32,021 nucleotides of DNA from a virus. Of the stretch, positions 22,429-26,383 are shown piece after piece. The stretch's first letter is position 1; each line of letters opens with the position of its first letter. The notes beneath the pieces were generated by a model. The model was not told where the DNA came from, made no database searches, and was given only the letters and a program-made list of their open reading frames with translations. Position numbers and translations under genes: made by a program. Location of the stretch: positions 1 through 32,021 of IMG/VR virus record IMGVR_UViG_3300025086_000130, one strand, 5' to 3'.

Positions 22429-23511
22429 ATGCCCCCACGCAATCACAAGGATTGGATTAAGACTCCCAACGTAGAACACATCAGTTCGTCGATCTACTCT
22501 AGTCACGACATCTACAAACAGGAACTAGATAAGATATTCTCTAAAGTGTGGATACCCATGTGTCACTCCAGCGAACTACTATGCTTGGGGGATTACAGAA
22601 CTACACAGATAGCCTTGCAAAATGTGGTAGCGGTTCGTTTTGAGAACAACGTAATTAAAACATTCTTGACCGACAAAGTAAAATCCCCCGCTGGTAACAA
22701 TCTGTCTATGGTCTATCATTCTGGCGGCTGGCAGGAATTACCCTGCGAAGTAAAGCATGGGGGTATGGTCTGGACTACCCTAAACACTAACCCAGATCAA
22801 AGCGTAGATGAGTGGACAGGTGGTGCATTCGACTGTATCGCGGATGCTATCGACACTGAAGAGATGGAAGTCTTTCACTACCACAAGGCAGTAATAGATA
22901 CAAACTACAAGCTGTGGCACGATACCAACAGCGAGTTCTATCACGATTTCATGCACTACTTTAATCGTGTCTCAGGGTTTAACGATGAATACTTTGCTAG
23001 AAAAAACATACCATTCGATAACGGACATGTTAATGTTAGCAGCTTCACCGTTAACTACGAGGAGTACGATGGGTTTGAGGATAGAGGAGAGCTTAGTTTC
23101 CCTAACCTGCCACCCAATCAGTGGTACATGGTTGACCTGTTCCCCGGATTTAATTTTAATCTTCGGGGTAGTGCTTATCGAAGCGATAGCGTTACACCTC
23201 TTGGGCCAAACAAAGTTCTTATTGAGTTTCGCGGCTACGGTCTTAAGAAGGATACCCCAGAGGAACGGCAGACTCGTATCAAGCATCACAACTCTATCTG
23301 GGGTCCATTCGGGCGTAACCTACACGAAGACTTGATAGGCGTAGCTGGTCAGGGTACAACAATGCGCGAGGGAACCGAACCTCGTAATATCCTGCACGGA
23401 CGACATGAGAACAGCACCATCCACGACGAAGTTGGTATGCGTCACTACTACGCAGAGTGGAGCAAATGGATGGGCTTGGATGCAAGTAAGTCTTGGCAAT
23501 TAGCGGCGTAG
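22429..23511 (+). CDS. Rieske-oxygenase-like protein lacking the Rieske cluster ligands (360 aa)
   Basis: Residues 15-80 (SSSIYSSHDIYKQELDKIFSKVW, then GDYRTTQIALQNVVAVR) follow the start of Rieske non-haem iron oxygenase alpha subunits. Where CxH and CxxH ligands should stand (about 80-105), the protein reads FLTDKVKSPAGNN and MVYHSGGW, so no [2Fe-2S] site is possible and the domain is shortened. The catalytic domain keeps NYKLWHDTNSEFYHDFMH (H172, H176) and a later D301 in NLHEDLIGV, candidates for the 2-His-1-carboxylate iron site. The H-x3-H spacing is one residue shorter than is common. Substrate is unknown. It may be a structural scaffold or an enzyme with outside electrons. There is no clear ribosome site. 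Confidence 0.75.
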   Translation: MPPRNHKDWIKTPNVEHISSSIYSSHDIYKQELDKIFSKVWIPMCHSSELLCLGDYRTTQIALQNVVAVRFENNVIKTFLTDKVKSPAGNNLSMVYHSGGWQELPCEVKHGGMVWTTLNTNPDQSVDEWTGGAFDCIADAIDTEEMEVFHYHKAVIDTNYKLWHDTNSEFYHDFMHYFNRVSGFNDEYFARKNIPFDNGHVNVSSFTVNYEEYDGFEDRGELSFPNLPPNQWYMVDLFPGFNFNLRGSAYRSDSVTPLGPNKVLIEFRGYGLKKDTPEERQTRIKHHNSIWGPFGRNLHEDLIGVAGQGTTMREGTEPRNILHGRHENSTIHDEVGMRHYYAEWSKWMGLDASKSWQLAA

Positions 23512-25177: not shown

Positions 25178-25326
25178 TACGTCACCAATTCTTAAAGCCA
25201 GTGTATTTAAGAAGAACAAAGTTTCCCCCCGTATACAAAAGAGAAGACTTGAAGCTTATACGTACTTTACCCGGCGGGGTCAGGCACTACAAACTAAAAG
25301 AGAAGAAGAGTAAGGTAAATGGCTAG
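25174..25326 (+). CDS. Small basic protein with GTG start (50 aa)
   Basis: GTG at 25174 overlaps the upstream stop codon (GTGA) and its own stop overlaps the tail adaptor ATG by eight bases. The product is basic (VYLRRTKFPPVYKREDLKLI, then LPGGVRHYKLKEKKSKVNG). It has no known family. The chain of overlaps on both sides is the main support. Confidence 0.5.
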   Translation: MIRHQFLKPVYLRRTKFPPVYKREDLKLIRTLPGGVRHYKLKEKKSKVNG

Positions 25327-26383
25327 TAGTTATCTTGTGTTAGTAAACAATGTTCTTCGGGACATGAACGAAGTCGAGCTTACCAGTTCTACGTTTGCTA
25401 CTTCTCGTGGTGTGCAGACAACTGTAAAAGACTACATCAACCGTTCAATATCTGACATACTAAACTCTGAACTAAACTGGCCCTTTACTCACGCTGAAGG
25501 GTCAATTGACGTTATTGCAGGTAAGTCTCTTTATAGCTACCAGTCTATAGCATCTACTTTAAAATATGTAGACTATGACAACATGATCCTGCAGCCTAAG
25601 AACTTTATACAAAATGGGGACTTTGAAATAGCAGGGTCTGCAAGTATAACTAACTGGACAACAGTAGGAGGTAGCCCTGCTGCAAGTTCAAAGTTTGGTA
25701 ACACCCTTCTACTTACCAGTGCAGAAGCAAGCCAAGAAGTTAACGACTTAATTGTAGGAAGATCGTATACAGTACTCACCCAGACTAGCGGTGCAACTTT
25801 AACCCTAGAGATTGGCACGAGTTCTGGTGGGTCACAAACAAAGTCAGCAACTCTGACGATCAGTAGCGGAAACGAAATTCTGCTTACTGAAACAACGTTT
25901 ACTGCGACTGCAACAACTCACTATGTTAGCTTCACAGAAGCAGCAGGGGCTGCAGCGTTTGTAAAGTTAGTTGAGTTGAGCGAGTCTGCAACATCAATTG
26001 CTTTGAAATACTTGTCCTACGAGGAGTATACAGAGCGATACAGGGAAAGAGACTCTCGACCTGATGTAGATAAGTTTGGTGATCCAGAGTATGTCTACAC
26101 CACATACAACGACGAAATAGGTTTGACACCTATACCTGACACCAGCAATCGCAGTCTGAAGTTTGATTACTACGTTGCATCATCTGCGTTGTCGGCGGCA
26201 ACGGACACATCTATCATACCAGAACGTTTCGAGCCAGTTATCAATGCTCGTTCAAAATACTACACCTACATGTTCCGTTCTGACACCCAAACTGCTCAGT
26301 TTGCTTTGAAAGAATACGAAGATGGCCTGAAGCGTATGCGAGTCGAGTTGCTAAATAGAAAAAACTATATGAGAGCAGTTTAA
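25319..26383 (+). CDS. Tail adaptor/tubular protein with inserted carbohydrate-binding-like domain (354 aa)
   Basis: The N-terminus (VLRDMNEVELTS, then VQTTVKDYINRSISDILN) and the C-terminal part (YLSYEEYTERYRERDSRPDV to the KRMRVELLNRKNYM end) fit the short-tail adaptor (T7 gp11/P22 gp4-like) that joins portal to tail hub. Residues about 95-222 are an insert starting FIQNGDFEIAG, with a beta-rich Ser/Thr/Gly composition like CBM4/9-type carbohydrate-binding modules. It would stand out from the tail surface and could touch host sugars. AAGG precedes the ATG. The adaptor call is firmer than the CBM call. Confidence 0.75.
   Translation: MASSYLVLVNNVLRDMNEVELTSSTFATSRGVQTTVKDYINRSISDILNSELNWPFTHAEGSIDVIAGKSLYSYQSIASTLKYVDYDNMILQPKNFIQNGDFEIAGSASITNWTTVGGSPAASSKFGNTLLLTSAEASQEVNDLIVGRSYTVLTQTSGATLTLEIGTSSGGSQTKSATLTISSGNEILLTETTFTATATTHYVSFTEAAGAAAFVKLVELSESATSIALKYLSYEEYTERYRERDSRPDVDKFGDPEYVYTTYNDEIGLTPIPDTSNRSLKFDYYVASSALSAATDTSIIPERFEPVINARSKYYTYMFRSDTQTAQFALKEYEDGLKRMRVELLNRKNYMRAV

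Follow-up and report, generated by a model that had tools for sequence, protein, structure and literature searches.

A Rieske-less oxygenase alpha subunit in a marine phage as the probable catalytic half of a split MsmA-type monooxygenase

The window analysed here, 32,021 nucleotides covering positions 1 to 32,021 of the IMG/VR virus record IMGVR_UViG_3300025086_000130, has a terminase and a portal closest to those of HMO-2011-type podoviruses of Roseobacter, Pelagibacter and SAR116. An open reading frame on its plus strand (22429..23511) codes for a 360-aa homologue of MsmA, identified by a Pfam match, alignment and predicted fold as a catalytic-only alpha subunit lacking the Rieske centre and called alpha-C in the following. 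As the initial annotation had described, the gene lies between a phage lysozyme (21546..22031, plus strand; PF00959) and an SU10-type adaptor protein (25319..26383, plus strand; PF24175). Promoter and terminator scans around it gave signals no higher than in shuffled sequences. The Ring_hydroxyl_A family (PF00848) matched residues 144-349 above the cut-off (E 1.3e-7) and the Rieske family (PF00355) gave no match in the Pfam search of the window protein, bearing out both the Rieske-oxygenase ancestry and the cluster loss proposed at the outset. The claimed N-terminal likeness was also found, with residues 18-82 resembling the N-terminal end of the alpha subunits of biphenyl and phenylpropionate dioxygenases up to the point where the cluster-binding loops start. 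Upon alignment to one-piece MsmA, the C-x-H-x26-C-x2-H region proved to be deleted in alpha-C, and with it all columns of the general Rieske motif C-x-H-x(n)-C-x2-H; a shortened, hypervariable remnant of the subdomain is left at residues ~49-108 (22573..22752, plus strand), from which both cluster-binding loops are gone. A Rieske spacer of 26 residues is regarded as diagnostic of MsmA; it is missing from alpha-C and sits in a host protein, alpha-R, described below. The 2-His-1-carboxylate iron site within the PF00848 domain is present. Residues 169-177 (E-F-Y-H-D-F-M-H-Y; 22933..22959, plus strand) hold the bridging carboxylate E169, three residues ahead of the first iron-binding histidine, and the ligands H172 and H176, in the same columns as in one-piece MsmA, and D301 (codon 23329..23331, plus strand) is the third ligand; the three iron ligands were numbered correctly in the initial annotation.

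AlphaFold2 modelling of alpha-C with a 42-row alignment led to a pLDDT of 82 and a pTM of 0.85. The best VIA-align match of the model was 2b1x (Z 31.6, 320 residues, 2.9 A), its best structural neighbours were the alpha subunits of naphthalene, biphenyl and terephthalate dioxygenase together with CntA (Z 29.9), and Foldseek was concordant (E 1e-19). The fold is thus predicted to be that of a Rieske-oxygenase alpha subunit, which leaves the proposed ancestry intact. Because the catalytic helices were modelled with lower confidence (blocks of about 57-60), no conclusion on the metal geometry is drawn.

Among annotated genes, the closest is gp61 of Puniceispirillum phage HMO-2011 (YP_008320323.1; 74% identity), designated methanesulfonate monooxygenase alpha subunit. 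A scan of viral contigs yielded at least 598 relatives. In relatives the gene often lies near lysozyme and small late genes, and its position varies: it is 3' of the lysozyme in the window, and in HMO-2011 it has a block of small genes on one side and the lysozyme/terminase genes on the other. Relatives were also observed in large-genome phages (L160, L249, L250, L257 and the 221-kb record L248), which carry genes for ribonucleotide reductase, DNA ligase and radical SAM proteins, and alpha-C is hence not confined to HMO-2011-type podoviruses. The conservation alignment comprised 186 rows (173 distinct viral sequences before the length filter), among them three one-piece MsmA (L193, L195 and L221, the latter with an X at the second Rieske histidine) that leave the invariant ligand columns unchanged. 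In all 186 rows D165, E169, H172, H176 and D301 are constant, so the variation at the iron ligands that would speak against the initial annotation is not seen, and a full Rieske motif occurs in none of the aligned short alpha-C rows. The most variable part besides the C-terminal tail is residues ~51-108, in these rows as well as in an earlier set of 128.

Phage sequences paired at random differ by ~0.8 per synonymous site whichever segment is compared, and by 0.07 per non-synonymous site in residues 161-345 and 0.41 in residues 51-108; for the catalytic domain, pS is about 0.83 and pN 0.05. Having at least 598 viral relatives, near-saturated synonymous sites and few amino-acid changes in the catalytic part, alpha-C is a real gene and not a chance reading frame. 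Close pairs gave an omega of about 0.02 in the catalytic part and about 0.26 in the former Rieske segment; since these pairs were chosen on catalytic pS, the raised pS outside the catalytic domain is at least partly due to this selection. Purifying selection on the catalytic half of phage alpha-C is very strong, and in the former Rieske half it is relaxed or the sequence is diversifying. Among the relatives, the latter segment comes in about a dozen distinct allelic types. Copies in cellular operons share one type of their own, except for L159, which groups with phages. Between L076 and three other sequences (L077, L079 and L080) the segment is 45-46% identical and the flanks about 92-95%, a sign of cassette exchange; recombination thus exists, but with few clear cases, all involving L076, regular swapping is not supported as the rule.

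A genome scan revealed short alpha-C proteins in SAR116 genomes with 73-81% identity to the window protein; one-piece MsmA of about 416 aa in other proteobacteria share 50-59% with it. In SAR116 the gene belongs to an msm-like operon in the order ABC transporter, ~796-aa alpha-R, beta subunit, Rieske ferredoxin, 279-aa protein and alpha-C; next come a LysR regulator, a TauE-like exporter and, as judged by sequence, panB-, formate-THF ligase- and folD-like genes. Alpha-R carries a Rieske domain (residues 43-132) and a ferredoxin-reductase module (residues 387-786) and gave no PF00848 match; a model of its N-terminal part (pLDDT 74, pTM 0.76) also matches Rieske-oxygenase alpha subunits. The motif C-x-H-x26-C-x2-H is intact in all 11 alpha-R sequences, and the H-x3-H region is deleted or replaced: the column of the iron-binding aspartate is gapped and the first iron-binding histidine lost in 11 of 11, the second histidine in 10 of 11. 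In G029, a single contig of 2,753,527 bp which we take to be strain IMCC1322, the ligands of alpha-R can be aligned but are changed (H to Q and H to K), and the aspartate is gone. Although its own iron site has vanished, alpha-R keeps the Rieske half nearly invariant.

The loss in the two chains is mirror-image. In the Rieske core, alpha-R shares on average 0.79 of its residues with one-piece MsmA and alpha-C 0.09-0.10, and in the catalytic core the mean identities are 0.30 for alpha-R and 0.80 for alpha-C; in one-piece MsmA itself the catalytic motif is kept in 63 of 63 sequences and the Rieske motif in 62, the remaining one having an unreadable residue there. As far as motifs in the sequences go, alpha-R and alpha-C are reciprocally degenerate, and a partner chain with the cluster motif and without the iron site is thus present in cellular operons. 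Within the 61-genome family, alpha-C was detected in 12 genomes, alpha-R in 11 of the same 12 and neither in the other 49 (Fisher p 3e-11, shared ancestry not corrected for), and the twelfth alpha-C genome, G005, has alpha-R fragments, one of them at a contig end.

Several further observations concern these operons. The alpha-R gene of G012 (C5:71233-73571) is interrupted, with two pieces in different frames and an internal TGA in one, reflecting either a sequencing error or decay, and that of a Magnetovibrio MAG (L155:2911-5481) is longer, with a product of 857 aa whose degenerate catalytic region contains additional segments. SAR116 MED-G04 (L173) has a one-piece MsmA in place of the split pair. 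SAR116-type operons or phage sequence were found in MAGs named Planktomarina, Marinovum, Hellea and Rickettsiales (L152, L158, L159 and L160), whose contigs are probably misbinned. A protein of ~280 aa that matches no Pfam or NCBIfam family is regularly encoded near msm genes of both types, with the split type at L145:6953-7792 and in L146-L150, L152-L155, L157, L158 and L161 and with one-piece MsmA in L180-L183, L185, L188, L190, L191, L194, L195 and L198, and might be an accessory or assembly factor. In presumed IMCC1322 (L354:9912-14502), three dmsABC (DMSO-reductase)-like genes lie between the ferredoxin gene and the ~280-aa gene of the split operon; dmsABC has been mentioned near msmA (PMC8547437).

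The other half was not found in phages. In 22 phage records of up to 221 kb, PF00848 was detected in all 22 and PF00355 above the cut-off in none; three sub-threshold PF00355 matches turned out, by position, length and frame, to be alpha-C itself and cover profile positions 2-42 only. Viral-contig scans with alpha-R alone or with an alpha-R alignment, in which exact-peptide seeds limit sensitivity, revealed no phage-borne alpha-R and returned only alpha-C or unrelated reductases. Likewise, the beta subunit, the ferredoxin, the transporter protein and the 279-aa protein had no match in the viral loci (several kb on each side). The portal is shared by 38 records of the phage collection, and HMO-2011, present as two records of one phage, is the sole carrier of alpha-C in it; the portal-sharing Roseobacter and Pelagibacter phages are devoid of alpha-C, and no SAR116 host other than that of HMO-2011 is represented. 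This restriction, which rests on one SAR116 isolate, is consistent with the need for a host partner.

From the complementary motifs, the co-occurrence, the operon, the selection and the fold, all read from sequence, alpha-C is probably the catalytic half of a Rieske monooxygenase made of two pieces, and the phage would borrow the Rieske/reductase subunit of its host. The initial annotation had proposed either a repurposed catalytic domain using other electrons or a host-derived metabolic gene with new chemistry, and these two options merge into one because the best-supported electron source is a Rieske-bearing host partner subunit. We infer the physical assembly, the electron path, the substrate and the benefit to the phage as follows. 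An ancestral MsmA-type alpha subunit with Rieske and iron domains may have given rise to two reciprocally degenerate subunits, alpha-R, which kept the [2Fe-2S] Rieske centre, lost the iron site and was fused to a FAD/NAD ferredoxin reductase, and alpha-C, which kept the mononuclear iron site and lost the Rieske centre. Side by side, the two could work as complementary half-subunits, because ordinary Rieske oxygenases already pass electrons between neighbouring subunits, namely to the iron of the neighbour ~12 A away via a bridging Asp or Glu (PMC7948474; PMC12445004), an arrangement described as general (PMC12445004). In CntA, the distance between the Rieske centre and the iron is 44 A within the chain and 12.2 A across the subunit interface, the bridging E205 links the two centres, and E205 mutants are inactive (PMC7948474). 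A precedent for activity in a divided Rieske oxygenase is the chlorophyllide a oxygenase (CAO) of Micromonas, which is made up of two polypeptides (PMC9615114, citing Kunugi et al., 2013). The invariance of E169 and this active two-chain enzyme argue for phage alpha-C joining host alpha-R, and an invariant E169 would not be expected in a chain that is never fed by a neighbouring Rieske centre. Since a plain three-membered ring allows at most one productive alpha-R/alpha-C junction, the arrangement proposed for Micromonas CAO, a trimer of heterodimers, appears more plausible. In an infected SAR116-type host, phage alpha-C would associate with alpha-R, the beta subunit and the Rieske ferredoxin of the host and raise the amount of active iron sites. 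Methanesulfonate is the probable substrate, as suggested by homology and by the operon context (sulfonate-type transporter, TauE-like exporter and one-carbon genes), and its conversion to formaldehyde and sulfite would feed one-carbon, nucleotide and energy metabolism. Phages possibly carry alpha-C only because, of the subunits, the iron-oxygen one is the quickest to wear out, by analogy with cyanophages, which bring along just D1, the damage-prone subunit of the photosystem.

Among other explanations, alpha-C as a stand-alone non-haem iron enzyme, supplied with electrons by a ferredoxin, a flavoprotein, a small reductant or peroxide and having no Rieske partner, survives best and is nevertheless unlikely: the complete and conserved iron site, the 22 tested phage records without a Rieske protein and the free Rieske ferredoxin in the host operon agree with it, and strict purifying selection would also fit an alpha-C with another electron donor, but E169 never varies and corresponds to the E205 that in CntA links the neighbour's Rieske centre to the iron (PMC7948474), cellular alpha-C occurs only together with alpha-R in the 61-genome family, and the Rieske half of alpha-R stays nearly invariant despite the lost iron site. 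For a decoy or dominant-negative protein that displaces host alpha-C or ties up alpha-R, thereby blocking or redirecting sulfonate metabolism, an intact iron site would be needless, yet ligands and catalytic core evolve at an omega of about 0.02; this idea, to which the hypervariable former Rieske segment lends itself because phage types unlike the cellular one could alter assembly, we consider very improbable. Slimmer still are the chances of the third option of the initial annotation, a non-enzymatic virion or lysis protein reusing the oxygenase fold, as suggested by the location among lysozyme and tail/adaptor genes and by relatives often near lysozyme and small late genes; it found no support, as the catalytic ligands are invariant, the same protein is encoded in cellular msm-like operons and the gene place differs between the window phage and HMO-2011. 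Neutral decay of a host-derived oxygenase gene losing parts may explain the relaxed segment (omega about 0.26) but is practically dismissed, being refuted for the catalytic domain by its omega of about 0.02, with that domain almost unchanged at near-saturated synonymous divergence and at least 598 relatives present in viral contigs.

In a tree limited to this one Rieske-oxygenase family, phage and cellular alpha-C form one clade, sister to one-piece MsmA, and the cellular operon copies form one clade placed within the phage diversity. Since a single phage clade is compatible with the AU test (p 0.39), phage-to-host transfer is not claimed. Beyond the split itself, we see about even chances for a broader picture in which a bacterial Rieske monooxygenase was divided into reciprocally degenerate halves, marine phages spread the catalytic half alone as a plug-in reliant on the electron-delivering half of the host, and the hypervariable segment faces the equally variable ex-catalytic segment of alpha-R, diversified per host.

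Phages of the HMO-2011 type rank among the most abundant marine phages, and for a decade their 'MsmA' has been cited as an auxiliary gene of the sulfur cycle. The absence of CXH-Xn-CXXH from the HMO-2011 protein, from many 'MsmA' of GOS and viromes and from one of two 'MsmA' of the host IMCC1322 is already published and not new (PMC4433239, 2015). These phage and metagenomic proteins belong to the same family as alpha-C and share its missing motif; they were read plainly as MsmA, and in the literature searched, outside the scope of which Kang et al. (2013) lies, we found no reason for the missing motif and no partner, reciprocal loss or selection analysis. As far as could be searched, explaining the missing motif by a split enzyme is new, and so is the pattern of selection. 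A split enzyme would resolve the contradiction of an abundant phage 'MsmA' without the cluster such an enzyme needs, and it predicts that neither MsmA-like protein of IMCC1322 is a complete enzyme. If true, reciprocal loss would have split a Rieske oxygenase in bacteria, and a phage auxiliary gene would function solely as half of a complex of the host.

Compared with known systems, MsmA of methylotrophs (e.g. the Filomicrobium homologue L172) is 80% identical to alpha-C in the catalytic core, with the same columns for iron ligands and bridging glutamate, but has the Rieske motif with the 26-residue spacer in the region deleted in alpha-C. CntA carnitine monooxygenase, a fold match as mentioned above, likewise has its bridging glutamate three residues before the first iron-binding histidine and passes electrons between subunits, as the split pair would; unlike that pair, it is a homotrimer with both centres in each chain (PMC7948474). 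The caffeine N-demethylase NdmA/NdmB (alpha3alpha'3; PMC12445004) contains two different alpha subunits and is comparable as a hetero-assembly only. The Micromonas CAO is also a Rieske oxygenase distributed over two polypeptides, but it is eukaryotic, acts on another substrate, is not phage-borne and is described without a reductase fusion (PMC9615114).
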